From an uncultured Geobacteraceae bacterium (GTDB taxonomy: Bacteria; Desulfobacterota; Desulfuromonadia; Geobacterales; Pseudopelobacteraceae): a DNA stretch of 41,747 bases. The notes below the pieces were generated by a model. The model saw only the letters and a program-made list of their open reading frames with translations, searched no databases and had not been told where the DNA came from. The DNA is taken from NCBI GenBank assembly GCA_903845365.1, contig CAIMXI010000102.1, positions 1 to 41,747 of the forward strand, written 5' to 3'. Positions 4,114 to 41,747 of this stretch are shown in pieces. The translations under genes were made by a program, and so were the position numbers. Position 1 is the stretch's first letter, and every line of letters begins with the position of its first letter.

Positions 4114-5514
4114 ATGCGTTCATATCCCTATACAATAACAATATCTTCTGAAAAAGGTGGCGTCGGCAAGACAACGCTAGCTACCAATCTAGCAATATAT
4201 CTGAAAGCCATGCGCGAAGATCTGCCTGTGACCCTCTTCTCCTTTGACAACCATTTCACCATCGACAAAATGTTCGAACTGCAAAAACGTGGAGAAAATG
4301 TTCCGGATGTACATGAGCTTTTGATGGGGGCGAAAGGGAGTGAAGTTGTGCAGACAGGTCAGTATGGAGTCGGATTTATCCGATCTTCCACCGAACTCTC
4401 AGATATCCATGAACGTTTCAAAGGACCTATGACGCTGACTCGAATGTTGGCTGAATCCGGCATTTCAGGCATTATCATTATTGATACACGCCCGGATCTT
4501 AATATTTTGACACAAAATGCCCTGTATGCCGCCGACCGGGTACTGATCCCGGTAAAAGATCTCCCCAGTCTTGAAAACTGTAAAAACATCTTTGCACAGT
4601 TCGACCAGCGGGGCATCGACAAAAAATCACTCGCACTGATCCCTTGCCTGATCGACTCACGCATTAAATTCGAAGGCATTTTCAAAGACCAGAAGACGCT
4701 CCTGCGTGCTATCGCAGTCAACCGTGGCTACAGATGCATGGATACCCATATTTCAAAAAGCCCTAAAGTCGAAAGTCTGAATACCAACCCGGACGGCAAA
4801 ATTTATCCTATCCTGACTCACGCCCGTGGCACCGAAGTTTACAGTCAGTTCATGGAAATATCACGTGATATCCTGAGAAGTTTCGACGCAACCAGAGAAA
4901 GCAGAGCATGCCTGTATCACACTTGGCTCCTTGAAAAAGAAGCCCACAAGAAGGAGTCGTATCTTGCCCGGCTCGAAGGGCTGACGGAGCGCTGTCTTAT
5001 CTGCGGTGCGCTACTGGCGGAACATTCCGATGATCGAAGTTTCTATTTTGAAACATCAGATCGTTCAGCGCGAGGCTTTCTGCATGGGTATTGTGTCAAT
5101 AAAATGCTCTGTTCTGCGCTATACGGGCTAAAGGAAAGCGACCCGACTTTTGACGCTGCCACAGCACTTGTTGCCGAGAAAGTCACTAAATCCGTATCAC
5201 TTCTGCTGCCACGAATAAACTCAGAAGGGAGTCGCCTTGATTATCGCCTGTTCAGCATGAAGGGGGAGCAACTGCTCCAGAAGAGTGTCGGCATGCCCGG
5301 CTTTGAGGCTGGTGAATTCAATGGCGTCAACGACCGGTTGTATCTGCTTCTGAATGAGGCTCTGGCGGGGTTTGAAGGTGCCTTACGGGAAAAAAGCTGG
5401 TTGTCTGTCTACCCTGTGGATCCGATAAAGCCGGAGGCGGTGCTGCACGAAGATTCATACAAGTCTGTCCACCGGCTGCAGAGGCAGTTGTCGGAAGCGA
5501 TCCAGGCTCTTTAG
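4114..5514 (+). CDS. ParA/MinD-family ATPase with long cysteine-containing C-terminal extension
   Basis: 466 aa. Residues 1-260 form a ParA/MinD-type P-loop ATPase: a deviant Walker A, EKGGVGKTT (13-21), and IIIIDTRPD (121-128), the Walker A-prime/switch region. Members of this family dimerise on ATP and position chromosomes, division sites or polar machines. Residues 265-466 do not match anything I recognise. They include CLIC (C294, C297) and a second pair (C327, C333) that could make a small metal site. No ParB partner, parS-like site or CheY/Flh neighbour is visible, and the gene appears to stand alone between a haemagglutinin-like gene and the converging secretion/division cluster. Its last base is 9 bp from the stop of the convergent deacetylase gene. 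A role in placing the secretion machine is only a guess from position. Confidence 0.8.
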   Translation: MRSYPYTITISSEKGGVGKTTLATNLAIYLKAMREDLPVTLFSFDNHFTIDKMFELQKRGENVPDVHELLMGAKGSEVVQTGQYGVGFIRSSTELSDIHERFKGPMTLTRMLAESGISGIIIIDTRPDLNILTQNALYAADRVLIPVKDLPSLENCKNIFAQFDQRGIDKKSLALIPCLIDSRIKFEGIFKDQKTLLRAIAVNRGYRCMDTHISKSPKVESLNTNPDGKIYPILTHARGTEVYSQFMEISRDILRSFDATRESRACLYHTWLLEKEAHKKESYLARLEGLTERCLICGALLAEHSDDRSFYFETSDRSARGFLHGYCVNKMLCSALYGLKESDPTFDAATALVAEKVTKSVSLLLPRINSEGSRLDYRLFSMKGEQLLQKSVGMPGFEAGEFNGVNDRLYLLLNEALAGFEGALREKSWLSVYPVDPIKPEAVLHEDSYKSVHRLQRQLSEAIQAL

Positions 5515-29214: not shown

Positions 29215-30594
29215 ATGAAACCAACCATACTTGTCATTGATGATGATGCGTCGCTACGGCGCGTTTTAGAATACAACCTCCAGGATGCCGGCTATCAGGT
29301 GTTCACTGCCGCAGGCGGTGAAGAGGGGTTGGCTCTCTTCGCCGAAGAGGCTCCGGTGCTGGTGATATCCGATATGAAGATGCCCGGAATGGACGGCATG
29401 CAACTTCTGAAAGCCATTAAGGAACGCTCGCCGGAAACGCTGGTAATCATGGTAACCGCCTTTGGCACGATAGATGTTGCTGTGGATGCAATGAAGGCCG
29501 GGGCATATGACTACATCACAAAGCCCTTCAATCGTGACGAACTGCGCCTGACCGTTGCCAAGGCACTCAAGTTCTGTAGACTGACCGTTGAAAACAGGCG
29601 TCTGAAAGATGAGTTGGCAGATAAAACAGATTACCAAACTATTGTCGGGTCATCTAAAGCCATGGGACGGGTTTTTGAAATTGTTCGCAAGGTGGCGGAT
29701 ACGGAGGCATCGGTTCTGCTCACGGGGGAATCGGGAACAGGCAAAGAGCTGGTAGCCCGTTCGATTCATCAGCAGAGCGGTCGCCGCCACGCCCCATTTA
29801 TCGCAATAAACTGCGCGGCAATCCCGCGTGATCTCCTGGAAAGCGAACTATTCGGTCATGTCAAAGGGGCGTTTACCGGGGCTATCAAGGACAAAACCGG
29901 CAAGTTTCAGCTTGCAGATGGCGGCACTCTCTTTCTGGACGAGGTAGGAGAGCTGCCGCTCGAACTCCAGCCAAAGCTGTTGCGGGCTTTGCAGGAAAAG
30001 GTGATTGAGCCGGTTGGCGGGACAAAAGAACATCGGCTCGACGTACGGATAGTGGCCGCCACCAATCTGGATATGGATAAAGCACTTATTGAAGCAACGT
30101 TCCGCGAGGATCTTTACTATCGCCTGGCGGTCATCCCGATTCACCTGCCTTCGCTGCGGGAACGCCCAGAGGATATAACCCTGTTGTTGCGCTATTTCTG
30201 TAAAAAACATCAAGCCGACGCGGTTGTCTTTGACGCCGGCGCCACTGCTGCTCTCAATACTTACGGGTGGCCAGGGAATGTCCGTGAGCTTGAGAATCTT
30301 GTTGAACGCCTTATGATCATGCGGAGTGGTAACGTCATAACCGTTAATGATCTGCCGGATAAAATTTTAAGTGGCAGCGTGACGTCAGACGCTTCATCCA
30401 TCTCCGGGAAGGTCGTGAATCTGCCTATCGGCGGCTACTCCCTCGAGCAACTGGAGCGGGAAGTCGTGACTGAGGCTCTGGAACATAACAGATGGAATCA
30501 GACCGCTGCAGCCAAATTTTTGCGTATTCCGAGACACACACTTATCTACCGGATGGAAAAGTATGGAATCACACCATCAGCGAAAACCGAATGA
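29215..30594 (+). CDS. NtrC-family sigma-54-dependent response regulator
   Basis: 459 aa. Receiver domain (1-120, phosphoacceptor Asp53 in [12 protein letters not shown], Lys103 in TKPF), an AAA+ domain with Walker A GESGTGKE (171-178), the sigma-54-contacting GAFTGA (218-223) and Walker [10 protein letters not shown] (236-244), and a Fis-type helix-turn-helix at the C-terminus ([23 protein letters not shown]). It should activate promoters of the -24/-12 type. The gene lies 33 bp after the second HD-GYP gene and slightly before a hybrid kinase, its likely signalling partner. Targets are unknown; a sigma-54 site lies before 40188 in this window. Confidence 0.95.
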
Positions 30595-30595
30595 T

Positions 30596-33500
30596 ATGAT
30601 CCGAAGAGAACTGCAGGTTAGGGATCGTACCGCCGATTTACCGGATAGTGAAGCTGGTCTGCGTTTTTTTGCCGATGGGGTGGCGGATTACAGGTATACG
30701 GTAAGTATTGAAAACGGTAGCGCCGTGAAAACTATCCAAAGCCCAGCCTGTCAGACCGTCACTGGGTATACACCCCAAGAATTTGCGGATAATCCTTATC
30801 TCTGGATTCAGATGGTTGTACCTGAGGAGGTCGATCAGGTACTGAACTGGGTGCATCAGCTCCTGGATGGTGTGGTGATACCTGCCATTGAACACAGAAT
30901 CATGCGTAAAGGCGGTGAGGTACGCTGGGTGCGCGACACGGCCATTCAGTTCAAGGATGCTTCCGGGACCCTCTTGTCTTACGACGGTATCGTACAGGAC
31001 ATCACTGAACAGAAGCGGGCAGAGGAGATGCTTCAAAAAGCAAATGCCTATAACCGCAGTTTGATTGAAGCCAGCCTGGACCCTCTGGTAACTATCGGAA
31101 AAGACGGTACGATCACTGACGTGAATCAGGCCACTGAACTGGTGACCGGATTATCACGGGAAGAGCTTATCGGCAGTGATTTTTCGAGCTATTTCACCGA
31201 ACCGGAGACCGCCAACAACGGGTATCGGCGCGTATTTCATGAGGGTACAGTTCGGGACTATCCTCTTGAGATCAAGCACAGGGATGGGCATCTTACGCCG
31301 GTACTTTACAATGCCTCGGTATATCGAGATCCAGATGGAGAAGTCATCGGCGTCTTTGCTGCGGCCCGAGACATTAGTAAACAGAAGCGAACCGACTCTA
31401 TCCAGCAGGCTCGCCTCAGACTCAGTGAATTCGCCTTTTCCCATTCCCTAGATGAGTTATTGACTAAAACATTAGATGAAGCAGAAGCCCTGACCGGCAG
31501 CGTGATCGGTTTTTTCCATTTTCTTGATGCCGATCAGAAAACCCTGCTGCTGCAGACCTGGTCTTCAAATACCCTGTCCAGCATGTGCTCCGCTGACGGG
31601 AAGGGGGAACATTACCAGATTGATATGGCTGGGGTGTGGGTAGATTGTATTCGCCAGCGCCGGCCGGTAATCCACAACGATTATGCGACGCTGGAGCATA
31701 AGAGGGGGTTGCCGGAAGGACACGCGCCCTTGATGCGTGAACTGGTTGTGCCGATCTTCCGCAGCGGCAAGATCGTAGGAATTATCGGAATTGGCAATAA
31801 ACCGGTTGACTATGTTGATGACGATATTGATGCGGTAGTTCAACTGGCGAACCTGGCCTGGGATATTGTGGTTGGCAAGCGGGCCGAAGAGGCTTTGATG
31901 GAGAGTCAGACAAAGCTACTTGAACAAAACAATGAGTTGCAGGCGACTGAAGAGATGTTGCGTGTGCAGATTAATGAATACGAGACTATTCAGGCGCTCC
32001 TGCGGGAGGCCAAGGCCGCAGCAGAATCTTCCAACCAGGCAAAAAGCCAGTTTCTGGCCAACATGAGTCATGAGATCCGCACCCCTGTTAACGGCGTGAT
32101 CGGCCTGATAGAATTGCTGCTGGGCACGGAGCTTACCGATAAACAGCGCAATTACGCCGAGATGGCGAAGCAGTCGACCAGAAATCTCGTGCAACTGATC
32201 AGCGACATCCTCGACCTCTCAAAAATAGAGGCACACAGGATCGAACTGGAAGCACGTGACTTTGATCTGGATGCCGAAATAACCGGTACCATCAACCTCC
32301 TTTCCCTGCATGCACAGGAAAAAAATCTGGCGCTCACATCATTGATCGACCCGGATGTGTCGCTCCGCCTGAGAGGTGATGCTGGACGACTGCGGCAGAT
32401 CCTTACCAACCTGGTGGGTAATGCAATCAAATTCACTGCCGAGGGGTCAGTTTCACTTCATATACGAACAGATCTGGAGGATGAAGAACACGTGACCCTC
32501 CGATTCACGGTCTGTGACAGCGGCATCGGCATTTCAGCGGACAAACTGGAAGATATATTCGATCCTTTTATCCAGGCAGACGGCTCCACTTCCCGTAAAT
32601 TCGGCGGTACCGGATTGGGACTCACCATTTCGCGGCAGTTGGCTGAATTGATGGGGGGCACTGTCCGGGTGGAGAGTACCGAGGGGATGGGGGCTACGTT
32701 TTGGTTTACTGCGGTGTTTGAAAAGCAGAAAGCCACCCCCAGGCTCCCACCTCTCCTTCTTGGGGAAGATCCGGGACTTGATGTGCTGGACGGCACTATT
32801 TCATCACGTTGCAATGACAAGCCCCATCCCGCTCCTGATATTCACCTGAGAGCAGTTGAGGGGGAAACAACTGCCACCATCAGACTGCTTCTGGCCGAGG
32901 ATGACGCTACAGGTCAGTTCGTAACACAATCCATTCTTGCAAACAATGGCTATCGGGTGGACGTGGCCAGCGATGGTGGCGAGGCTCTGAAATTGCTGGA
33001 GAACCACGACTACGATGCGGTTCTTATGGACTGTATGATGCCCGAAATCAACGGCTATGACGTTACCGCTGTTATTCGGGATCGAGCTTCAAAAGTCAGA
33101 AACCACGATGTACCGGTAATTGCACTTACTGCCAATGTTTTTGCTGAAGACCGTAAAAAATGCCTCGCGGCCGGCATGGATGATTACCTGGCAAAACCTA
33201 TCGAAGTTGAAAAATTGCTTGCGATGCTTGAGAAATGGGCGGCTCCCGGCTCAACTCCGGTTACTCCGGTTACTCCGGTTACTCCGGTTACTCCGGTTAC
33301 TCCGGTTACTCCGGTTACTCCCGTCGATTCCGATTGCAGACCCACAGCTCAGATAAGCGCGACTGGCAACCCGGCACTCCGTTTTACTTGCAAAGCAGAT
33401 GTATTTGAGATAGACGCGTTCGTCGCGCGAAATCAAGGTGATATGAAGCTCTGCTGTGATGCGGCCACCATATTTATCAACAGTGCGCCAGAATATGGTG

Positions 33501-33754
33501 GCTCGATCCGAGCGGCGCTGGCAGCCCGGGATGCTGTAGCCCTCCGCCACTCGGCACACAAGCTGAAGGGAGCCGCAGCAAATTTTTTCATGCCGTTACT
33601 TTCCGAAAGTGCCAGTTCGCTGGAATCTCTCGCCAAAACCGGTGATCTCAATGCAGCAGCAGGACTGGTGCCTGTTCTCGAACAGATGCTTGAACAAGCG
33701 CTTGAGGCGCTGAAGGAACAACTCATCGCACCGCAAAGAAAGGATAACCAATGA
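30596..33754 (+). CDS. Large hybrid sensor histidine kinase (PAS-PAS-GAF-HisKA-HATPase-REC-HPt)
   Basis: 1052 aa from the ATG at 30596, two bases after the NtrC-type stop. An in-frame ATG at 30563 behind GGAAAAGT is a real alternative. No membrane segment. Two PAS domains (about 25-265) end in [12 protein letters not shown] and [14 protein letters not shown] domain (about 280-425) comes next, then HisKA with the H-box MSHEIRTP (His492) and an HATPase domain ([25 protein letters not shown]). A receiver domain follows (Asp812 in [11 protein letters not shown]). A Thr-Pro-Val linker (887-910) and an HPt domain with [13 protein letters not shown] (His988) finish the protein. The full phosphorelay H-D-H is in one polypeptide; the following receiver gene is the probable final acceptor. 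Confidence 0.93.
33254..33325 (+). repeat. 9-bp tandem repeat encoding (Thr-Pro-Val)8
   Basis: Seven identical ACTCCGGTT units (33254-33316) followed by a diverged eighth, ACTCCCGTC. Perfect identity at the DNA level indicates recent expansion. The encoded rod-like linker separates the receiver and HPt domains of the hybrid kinase. Gain or loss of units keeps the frame. Confidence 0.95.
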
Positions 33755-40003: not shown

Positions 40004-40124
40004 CGTCGTAGCCATCCGGATCCCCATGAAGAATATCCCGCCATTCCTGTAGAATATTGTACAATCCTCCCACAACCCACCCCTTGTGCCAATAATTATC
40101 TGAATACTATCGAATAATTACAAC

Positions 40125-40140
40125 TTGGCACGACATCTGC
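40125..40140 (+). promoter_or_regulatory. Sigma-54 (-24/-12) promoter before the HMA gene
   Basis: TTGGCACG-ACAT-CTGC matches the sigma-54 consensus TGGCACG-N4-TTGC with a single mismatch. The invariant GG (40127-40128) and GC (40139-40140) are 10 nt apart. The predicted start of transcription is near 40151, leaving a leader of about 36 nt. The left half of the site is also part of an inverted repeat, GTGCCAA (40086-40092) / TTGGCAC (40125-40131). Confidence 0.75.
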
Positions 40141-40187
40141 TCTATTAGATAAGCAAGCAATTATCAGCCAGAGGAAATACTTCCCAA

Positions 40188-40613
40188 ATGAAAACCAGAG
40201 CAGTAATCATATCCATAATTCTTGGTGCGGTTGTTCTTCTCTCCGTGCTCGCGTTATACGTCAGGGTTGGGGCTACCGCCGATTCGGTGGCGGTCCTAAA
40301 AACGAGAGGTATGACCTGTAGCAGTTGCTCAGGCAAGATCAGTAATGCGCTTGAAAAGCTGAAAGGAGTGGCAGTTACTGAAGTTGACGTTGAAGGTGGC
40401 TGGGTAGTTGTAGGTTATGAAACAAAAACTATTAAACCGGAGAACCTGGCAGAGACGGTTAATGGCACCGGTTTCGCCAGCACTGTTAACCAGATACTGA
40501 CGCCCGCGCAATTTGAACAGATAACCGGCAGGGTAATTGGAAAAAGCTCTGCCTCTTCTTCAGGATGTTGTAGTGGTAAGGGTGGTGGCTGTGGCAGTAA
40601 TAAATCAAAATAA
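40188..40613 (+). CDS. Membrane-anchored heavy-metal-associated (HMA) domain protein
   Basis: 141 aa. One N-terminal membrane segment (about residues 7-26) or uncleaved signal, then an HMA ferredoxin-like domain with the metal-binding loop GMTCSSC (C44, C47) and the pattern ISNALEKLKGVAVTEVDVEGGWVVVGYE. A C-terminal tail is rich in Cys, Gly and Ser (SGCCSGKGGGCG), which could bind additional metal. Such proteins pass soft metals such as Cu(I), Zn or Hg; placement on the periplasmic side is inferred. It follows a strong sigma-54 promoter and is followed after 14 bp by a DUF2318 gene, suggesting a metal-handling operon. Confidence 0.85.
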   Translation: MKTRAVIISIILGAVVLLSVLALYVRVGATADSVAVLKTRGMTCSSCSGKISNALEKLKGVAVTEVDVEGGWVVVGYETKTIKPENLAETVNGTGFASTVNQILTPAQFEQITGRVIGKSSASSSGCCSGKGGGCGSNKSK

Positions 40614-40627
40614 CAAAGGAGATTTAG

Positions 40628-41092
40628 ATGTCAACAATTCGCATGAAACAGGTTATACGGACTGGTATCGTTACAGTAGCGCTATTTATTTGCGCAGCAA
40701 CAGTATTTGCTTTCTCGTTCGGCAAATATGAAAAGGTGAAGGTGATTAACGGAGCTGCAATAATATCAGTTGATAAACTGGCTGATGGCAAAGCTCACTT
40801 CTATAAATTCGAAGACGGCGGGAAAGAGATTGTTTTTTTTGCGGCCAAAGCGGCTGATGGAACTGTAAAGGCAGCTTTTGACGCCTGTGATTCCTGCTAT
40901 AAATCCAAAAAGGGGTACGAACAGCAGGGGGACAAGATGAATTGTAAAAACTGCAACCAGAAATTTGCCATCGACCGTCTGGGCCCTAATGCCACCGGCG
41001 GCTGCAACCCCGGTTATCTGCCGCATCAATTGAACGGCAATACTATTTCCATTTCAGTAAATGATCTTAAAAGCGGAGCGAGATACTTCTGA
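40628..41092 (+). CDS. DUF2318 cysteine-rich exported protein
   Basis: 154 aa with an N-terminal signal or anchor (about residues 11-29) and a strong AAAGGAG ribosome binding site. After a beta-rich half comes CDSC (C87, C90), then CKNC (C106, C109) and a final C126 in TGGCNPGYLP: a five-cysteine arrangement that marks the DUF2318 family and suggests a metal or redox centre. In Campylobacter the P19 iron-uptake locus encodes a DUF2318 protein next to MacB-type permeases, and the same neighbour appears here. Function is not established for this protein. Its stop overlaps the start of the permease gene. Confidence 0.85.
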   Translation: MSTIRMKQVIRTGIVTVALFICAATVFAFSFGKYEKVKVINGAAIISVDKLADGKAHFYKFEDGGKEIVFFAAKAADGTVKAAFDACDSCYKSKKGYEQQGDKMNCKNCNQKFAIDRLGPNATGGCNPGYLPHQLNGNTISISVNDLKSGARYF

Positions 41093-41747
41093 TGAAACTG
41101 CATACCATTTCCATCAATAACCTGAAGCGCCGCAAAGCCAAAATGGCTTTTCTGACCATCGGCCTGATGGTCGGCATCGCTACCATCGTCACTCTGGTAA
41201 CTCTGACCCGGTCGATGTCTGGCGATATCGAGCGGAAGATGGATGAATTCGGCGCAAATATCCTCGTCACTCCCCAGAGCAACGGGCTGTCCATGAACTA
41301 CGGCGGCATTGCTCTTGGTGGAGTAACCTTTGATCAACGAGAGATACGGGAAGAGGATCTGGCAAAAATCAAAACCATAACAAACCACAAAAACATCTCG
41401 GCTATCAGCCCAAAAGTTCTTGGCGGCATCAAAATCAATAATCATGATGTGTTGCTTGTCGGTGTCAACTTCGAGAGCGAATTGAAGATGAAACAGTGGT
41501 GGAAGGTTTTTGGCAATGAACCTAAATCTGAGCAGGATCTTTTGCTCGGTACCGATGCATCCAAAGTGCTCAATGTCTCTCCCGGCGACATCCTGACCAT
41601 CAAGGGAGAAACCTTCAAAGTCGCAGGGGTGCTCGATCAGACCGGTTCGCAGGATGACGCGTTGCTGTTTGTCTCTCTGAAAAAAGCCCAGAAGCTTTTG
41701 GGCAAGGAGGGCAAAATCAGCATGGCTGAGATAGCGGCGTTATGCTC
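41092..41747 (+). CDS. MacB/FtsX-type ABC transporter permease, partial (runs off right edge)
   Basis: At least 218 aa. It begins with ATG overlapping the DUF2318 stop (TGATG) and stays open to the window end. The cytoplasmic start HTISINNLKRRKAKMAFLTIGLMVGIATIVTLVTL is the first membrane helix of a MacB/FtsX permease. The large periplasmic MacB-PCD domain follows (ANILVTPQSN, ISAISPKVLGGIKIN, LLGTDASKVLNVSPGDILTI, VAGVLDQTGSQDDALLF). The remaining membrane helices should lie beyond the edge. Together with the HMA and DUF2318 genes it looks like part of a metal-import locus, probably followed by a partner permease and an ATPase. Confidence 0.9.
   Translation, partial: MKLHTISINNLKRRKAKMAFLTIGLMVGIATIVTLVTLTRSMSGDIERKMDEFGANILVTPQSNGLSMNYGGIALGGVTFDQREIREEDLAKIKTITNHKNISAISPKVLGGIKINNHDVLLVGVNFESELKMKQWWKVFGNEPKSEQDLLLGTDASKVLNVSPGDILTIKGETFKVAGVLDQTGSQDDALLFVSLKKAQKLLGKEGKISMAEIAALC

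Follow-up and report, generated by a model that had tools for sequence, protein, structure and literature searches.

What is encoded by three adjoining genes that stand at the very end of a contig behind a candidate sigma-54 promoter, and which metal do they serve? The window (the whole stretch of 41,747 nucleotides analysed here) is contig C102 of a draft genome of 5.5 Mb with 99.6% completeness and 3.1% contamination, and its last gene, a permease gene, is cut by the window end, which is also the contig end. An earlier note on this DNA had described a -24/-12 promoter ahead of genes for an HMA protein, a DUF2318 protein and a MacB-type permease, had linked these genes to metal handling, and had proposed a variant importer or exporter for a soft metal. 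We consider it quite probable that the locus forms the promoter-proximal end of an operon for Cu(I)/Ag(I) detoxification, which would be controlled by a kinase, an NtrC-type regulator and sigma-54, and in which a periplasmic cysteine module would serve the pump CusCBA. Within this mechanism, the efflux and control parts are likely.

Gene order and its conservation in relatives

The motif scan and the Pfam search confirmed the promoter and the three gene types behind it (Table 1). Contig C282 (L003) begins with the last 141 bases of the window, the permease frame runs on there, and the joined permease aligns with its relatives over its whole length. Beyond the permease, Pfam matches identified an ABC ATPase, an OEP channel, CusB with an HMBD and CusA; after these come an AAA_5 protein and a protein of 658 aa that matched no Pfam family. 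The operon, presumably transcribed as one unit, would thus run in the order HMA chaperone, DUF2318, type VII ABC permease, ABC ATPase, CusC-like channel, CusB and CusA, and this downstream CusCBA supports at the sequence level the proposed link to metal handling. The earlier note had suggested a search to the right for a second permease, an ATPase, a thioredoxin-like protein and an Ftr1/P19 gene. Among eight proteins of the next contig examined with Pfam, the ATPase was found, but there was only one permease, and neither a thioredoxin-like protein nor Ftr1 was seen.

Table 1. Positions of the operon genes, the control sites and the candidate regulator
Feature	Position	Strand	Remarks
NtrC-family response regulator	29215..30594	+	Pfam Response_reg, Sigma54_activat (E 3.7e-72), HTH_8
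Enhancer half 1, TGAAGAATATCCCGCC	40027..40042	+	predicted site; imperfect copy of TGtaGAATATTCtaCA
Enhancer half 2, TGTAGAATATTGTACA	40048..40063	+	predicted site; 21 bp after half 1
-24/-12 promoter, TGGCACGACATCTGCT	40126..40141	+	one mismatch to TGGCACGN4TTGCW
HMA protein, membrane-anchored, Cys-rich tail	40188..40613	+	PF00403, E 2.5e-11
Short DUF2318 (FtrD-like) protein	40628..41092	+	PF10080, E 3.3e-32
FtsX/MacB-type permease, 5' part	41092..41747	+	MacB_PCD, E 5.7e-15
Permease remainder	L003:142-646		386 aa when window and C282 are joined
ABC ATPase, LolD/MacB type	L003:751-1428		outside window
OMF (TolC-type, CusC-like channel)	L003:1455-2762		outside window; OEP
CusB	L003:2929-4311		outside window; HlyD_D23, HMBD
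CusA	L003:4430-7567		outside window; TIGR00914

Repeats were observed at several places. Similar palindromic interspersed repeats (CCCCCTTGATAAAGGGGG...) lie on L003 in the gap between permease and ATPase (about 650-745) and in that between cusB and cusA (about 4320-4410), and a run of PVTPVTP repeats lies at about 33230-33310 of the window, inside a hybrid histidine kinase gene (30563-33754).

By sequence comparison, a gene cluster conserved among Geobacter-like bacteria begins in the window. A DUF2318 search matched 49 of 58 genomes, the source genome included, and gave 55 places with a short DUF2318 gene (54 fetched from relatives and our own one); 33 weaker matches (30-45% identity, mostly the long form) were kept apart, and six of them were fetched. 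Directly after the short DUF2318 gene, the permease and the ATPase were found in 48 and 45 of the 55 places, respectively, and before it stood an HMA protein in 38, a His/Met-rich protein in 16 and either of the two in 49. Of the 44 places with at least 7.5 kb downstream, 35 have CusA or CusB there. The permease was not directly after DUF2318 in 7/55 places (in one it stood 7.7 kb further on), and neither CusA nor CusB was within reach in 9/44; these missing neighbours indicate that the modules are separable.

A permease-anchored search was made to lessen the bias of the DUF2318 anchor. In this search, 48 of 52 places adjoin DUF2318, one (G042) has the two genes parted by an insertion, and three, all of one genus (g9), carry permease, ATPase, OMF, CusB and CusA without DUF2318, each with the same kind of promoter. 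In a sample of the phylum, the DUF2318 profile matched 90/395 genomes, and among the 20 loci fetched (two from the own family and six from the own class), 17 had a CxxC permease and 9 had CusA or CusB in reach. The HMA protein is approximately 290-320 aa long in at least seven of these 20 loci, with a SurA-like part in one of two tested.

Two further observations concern the relatives. A His/Met-rich exported protein of approximately 150 aa (MDHSGH...) heads or follows many cassettes (L046:14460-14915, minus strand, and 15 other loci); the one tested (L042:13545-14006) had no Pfam match, and none was seen in the operon stretch studied here. A contig of a 'Rhodoferax' MAG (L155) carries a DUF2318 piece 92% identical to ours and is probably a mis-binned Geobacteraceae contig.

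Predicted promoter, enhancer pair and regulator

The promoter has its GG at 40127-40128 and its GC at 40139-40140 with a spacing of 10 bp, and transcription would be expected to start near 40152. One-mismatch sites of this kind are expected 0.52 times by chance in the window and were present in 41 of 100 shuffles; taken alone, the 16-mer is weak and could be chance. An identical 16-mer stands in three other loci (L044, L046 and L066). The match gains weight because it is conserved together with a double upstream site in relatives. Here and ahead of the cassettes of many relatives, the upstream region carries two palindromes (TGtaGAATATTCtaCA) with a spacing of 20-21 bp, and the pattern GAATAT-N15-GAATA occurs once in the window against 0.02 expected. 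TGtaGAATATTCtaCA is the consensus of 78 half-sites from 39 promoter-enhancer pairs, and several of its letters stand outside the search pattern, for example a C in 73/78 and a G in 64/78 half-sites. The distance between the second half-site and the -24 element in the 39 pairs was 63-64 (9 pairs), 73-75 (3), 82 (1), 86-89 (14) or 95-99 (12); as a post hoc remark, these values lie close to full turns of the helix within each promoter class.

A pair was counted where a double upstream site preceded a -24/-12 site by 60-140 bp; the promoter counts leave aside L050 and L061 (2/55 places, with less than 1 kb upstream) and 4/34 new named loci. With the first, stricter patterns, the sigma-54 site was found in 33/53 upstream regions, the double site in 15/53 and both in order in 12/53, against 7/416 and 12/416 control slices for the single elements, and the patterns were loosened afterwards. 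With the patterns tuned on the same data, promoter and double site occurred together in 30/53 regions against 4/416 control slices, and the single elements in 36 and 37 of 53 regions against 24 and 20 of 416 controls. With the patterns then fixed, the pair was found in 9/30 new named-locus regions against 1/273 controls, and the single elements were present in 16/30 and 13/30 regions (controls 3/273 and 10/273). The full pair was missing in 23/53 regions, 10 of which had neither element, and in 21/30 new regions. A promoter with double site also stands on the copy of plasmid pPRO1.

A search of whole genomes without any anchor found perfect double sites at 33 places in 24 of the 58 genomes, and the control pattern gave 0. 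Cassette parts or remnants follow 27 of the 33: a cassette HMA, His/Met protein, DUF2318 or permease gene in 19, OMF-CusB-CusA in 5, a degenerate cassette with kinase and regulator in 2, and a lone His/Met gene in 1. The remaining 6 lie elsewhere; one of them is followed by a gene for an M23 peptidase, of a kind also present in some cassettes. The halves in the window are imperfect and not among the 33, and the whole-genome pattern search found no perfect double site in the source genome; in a loose scan of this genome for double sites, 10 places matched, compared with 3 when the control pattern was used.

That the -24/-12 match is fortuitous and another promoter drives the operon would fit the chance expectation and the regions without a full pair given above. 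However, the conserved position, the enhancer pair, the orthologous regulator described below and the 33 perfect double sites against none in the control make this very improbable. The chance promoter was rejected on two grounds, the conservation of the pair in relatives and the positive outcome of the unanchored search.

Two side observations were made on these elements. The -12 element lacks its C in 28/39 pairs (TTGA in 24, TTGG in 3 and CTGA in 1; the remainder has CTGC), and such loci (L037, L042, L043 and others) keep an intact -24 element and the enhancer, which is unusual for sigma-54. In addition, a sigma-54 site and a perfect double enhancer lie ahead of the gene for an exported protein with a CYCSC motif (L276:360-932, minus strand), which is a possible extra member of the regulon.

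The source genome has one rpoN gene; in G. sulfurreducens, rpoN is reported to be essential (PMC2725144). The protein encoded at 29215-30594 has a receiver, a sigma-54 activator AAA+ domain and a Fis-type HTH, and it is 66-82% identical to 26 full-length regulators that the fetched loci carry no more than 10 kb from DUF2318; the next-best proteins of these loci reach 44-45%. Its next best match in the source genome is only 46%, and it is therefore the only ortholog found of the cassette regulator. The kinase ortholog stands alone on contig C281 (73% identity, next 40%), and kinase and regulator genes are thus apart in the source genome; both lie within the fetched stretch at 25 of the 55 short-DUF2318 places. 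Judged from orthology, this regulator probably activates the promoter at 40126-40141. We infer the kinase-regulator pairing and the DNA binding: the histidine kinase would sense stress and activate the regulator, which would bind the two palindromes at 40027-40063 and open the sigma-54 promoter. Promoter, enhancer pair and orthologous NtrC-type regulator together lend sequence support to the sigma-54 control that the earlier note had claimed, and the operon is probably switched by sigma-54.

The pump, its metal and the cysteine-rich module

By sequence, the operon has several features of a Cus-type system, with CusA over its cut-off, a three-Met site, a CusB adaptor and an OEP channel. CusA scores 1187.8 bits with TIGR00914 (cut-off 701.45), a model that covers CusA and CzcA alike, and its best solved relative is E. 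coli CusA with 1056 bits, followed by 632 bits for the zinc pump ZneA. In E. coli CusA, the Cu(I)/Ag(I) site has three methionines (M573, M623 and M672); all three align to Met here, and the site is kept in 28/28 aligned cassette CusAs. CusB has an HMBD and three Cys that are present in 34/34 aligned proteins. Export is well supported by sequence, and the operon probably exports copper or silver, with CusCBA pumping Cu(I)/Ag(I), as the presumed substrate, from the periplasm out of the cell.

The operon could also export another soft or transition metal (Hg, Cd, Zn or Co). The HMA protein scores, below cut-off, with MerP and mercury models as well, and cobalt induces an RND system of the CusA/CzcA family in G. 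sulfurreducens (PMC7726332, in the part consulted), which means that family names do not settle the metal. The three-Met site speaks against this reading, as do the P1B ATPases in or beside several cassettes: a Cu-type one inside the cassette of L065 (TIGR01511, 629 bits, cut-off 397), a CPC-type one inside that of L060, and CPC-type ones before all 3 permease loci without DUF2318. We consider another metal improbable. On Pelobacter propionicus plasmid pPRO1 (L248), the only PLSDB record matched and typed there as non-mobilizable, the cassette adjoins a Cu-type P-type ATPase (622 bits) and a RicR/CsoR-like gene whose score falls short of the RicR cut-off. The words 'efflux', 'copper' and 'heavy metal' do not occur in the portion consulted of PMC2669807, which names pPRO1, or in the main text of PMC2725144 on the G. 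sulfurreducens RpoN regulon, nor does 'copper' in the portion consulted of PMC12316311.

Between promoter and pump lies the cysteine-rich module. The Cys alignments took in only proteins that were long enough (48 permeases, 37 HMA proteins, 34 CusB and 28 CusA). The HMA protein has a CxxC (Cys 44 and 47) and, as the earlier note had seen, a Cys-rich tail (127, 128 and 135); residues 44, 47 and 127 are kept in 37/37 aligned proteins, 135 in 36/37 and 128 in 33/37. It is a probable periplasmic metallochaperone. The DUF2318 protein has 154 aa and one N-terminal helix; the 8-TM part is absent, and the domain search gave no YHS match. The five cysteines expected from the earlier reading are those of the soluble domain (87, 90, 106, 109 and 126), invariant in 29/29 aligned proteins within the motifs CxxC-x15-CxxC and GGCNP, and a further one (22) lies in the N-terminal helix.

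The predicted model of the DUF2318 protein (pLDDT 83, pTM 0.74) resembled Rieske ferredoxins such as T4moC (1vm9), with Z 10.5 and rmsd 2.6 over 101 aligned residues; Foldseek gave E 2.7e-4, TM 0.39/0.55 and rmsd 5.7, and a PDB sequence search with the DUF2318 alignment found nothing up to E 1. The ligand motif of the Rieske cluster is CxH-x16-CxxH. The predicted fold of DUF2318 is close to that of these ferredoxins, but its candidate ligands differ and are all-Cys: CxxC-x15-CxxC, and not the CxH...CxxH set, was found in 29/29 aligned proteins. We predict a Rieske fold with cysteines in place of the histidine ligands. The resemblance of the two spacings makes a four-Cys iron-sulfur or other metal site plausible.

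By its domains, the permease is of MacB type, as claimed earlier. It shows the features of type VII ABC proteins (MacB_PCD and FtsX domains, 4 TM and a separate ATPase), with predicted TM stretches at 15-41, 258-285, 301-330 and 348-374 and a domain at 41-258 between the first two. Its only two Cys form C218xxC221, predicted to be periplasmic and kept in 48/48 aligned homologues. The low-confidence model (pLDDT 64, pTM 0.47) matches LolE, MacB and HrtB (Foldseek E 3e-15 to LolE), and the closest folds are LolCDE, MacB and HrtBA. The permease has these domains and the separate ATPase in common with MacB, LolCDE and HrtBA and differs from them in its invariant CxxC, predicted to be periplasmic. 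With the HMA tail, DUF2318, the permease and the CusB HMBD, four cassette proteins carry conserved cysteines that are predicted to face the periplasm.

In this study, we speculated that the ABC/DUF2318 module serves either metal handover or the supply of reducing power, the latter as proposed for FetABCD (PMC10783030, in part). For the preferred operon, a thiol relay is conceivable in which the HMA protein, the all-Cys Rieske-like DUF2318 and the CxxC domain of the permease would collect, reduce or hand over metal in the periplasm, and the energy of ATP would be spent on conformational changes, as in MacB/LolCDE, and not on inner-membrane transport. A stronger form is that the HMA protein, DUF2318 and the ABC transporter make up an ATP-powered periplasmic handover machine that reduces or extracts copper and loads CusCBA; we put it forward tentatively. 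If true, it would be a new coupling of ATP hydrolysis to a proton-driven efflux pump, distributed across the phylum and sharing its core with the Fet iron system.

Alternatively, the ABC pair may leave the metal untouched and export a low-molecular thiol or feed reducing power into the periplasm, keeping the Cys of HMA, DUF2318 and CusB reduced and copper as Cu(I). CydDC is a precedent for such export of thiol and reducing power. The CxxC pairs in HMA, DUF2318 and permease and the conserved Cys in CusB would fit this, and the authors of PMC10783030, in the part consulted, predict for C. jejuni a relay of reducing power that starts at FetBCD and passes through FetA, a DUF2318 protein whose biochemical function they call unknown. 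However, the permease Cys lie in a predicted periplasmic domain, and the closest folds (of a low-confidence model) are LolCDE, MacB and HrtBA. We regard this alternative as rather unlikely.

Comparison with known systems

A variant ferrous iron importer of the P19/FetMP kind was also weighed. In its favour, FetABCD combines DUF2318 with permeases and an ATPase (PMC10783030, in part). With Campylobacter jejuni FetMP-FetABCDEF (the P19 system; same source, in part), the cassette has DUF2318, ABC permease and ATPase genes in common, and the likeness is confined to this part. It differs in its short DUF2318 without the 8-TM part and YHS, in having one permease and one ATPase in place of two permeases and an ATPase, in the absence of a visible thioredoxin in the cluster, and in the efflux pump into which the operon runs on. 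A search of the source genome (99.6% complete) gave no match to FTR1 or to P19 at E <= 0.001, which extends the earlier remark on their absence from the locus to the whole draft. A separate Fet-like cluster, with two FtsX-type permeases, an ATPase and a 448-aa multi-TM DUF2318 protein, lies on contig C497 (L091). The iron importer was rejected on the downstream CusCBA and the lack of FTR1 and P19, and we give it hardly any probability; of the two options for a soft metal, the exporter thus stood and the importer fell.

The component families are known, and in the open-access literature searched we found no description of the cassette combination of a known copper pump type with a Cys-rich ABC module, of its enhancer or of the predicted DUF2318 fold. 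The partnership of a predicted Rieske-like fold, a CxxC ABC permease and a copper-type pump makes the role of DUF2318 testable, and for what is probably a copper response of Geobacter-like bacteria, the cassette supplies a defined set of enhancer, promoter and regulator.

The operon shares homologues of CusA, CusB and CusC and the three-Met site with E. coli CusCFBA, which is regulated by CusRS. In contrast to E. coli, no CusF is recognised in the operon, which has an HMA protein in its stead; genes for DUF2318 and the ABC pair are added, and the regulator is of NtrC/sigma-54 type. G. sulfurreducens has been said to lack CusF (PMC7726332, in part). Similarly, the copper operon curA of Myxococcus xanthus (PMC3707914, in part) has a kinase and a sigma-54-dependent response regulator of its own, CorSR, as well as putative sigma-54 promoters, and its copper induction and CorSR dependence have been shown. 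It holds a multicopper oxidase and CopA, and the part of its gene table considered here lists no DUF2318/ABC module, which is present in the cassette of Geobacter-like bacteria.
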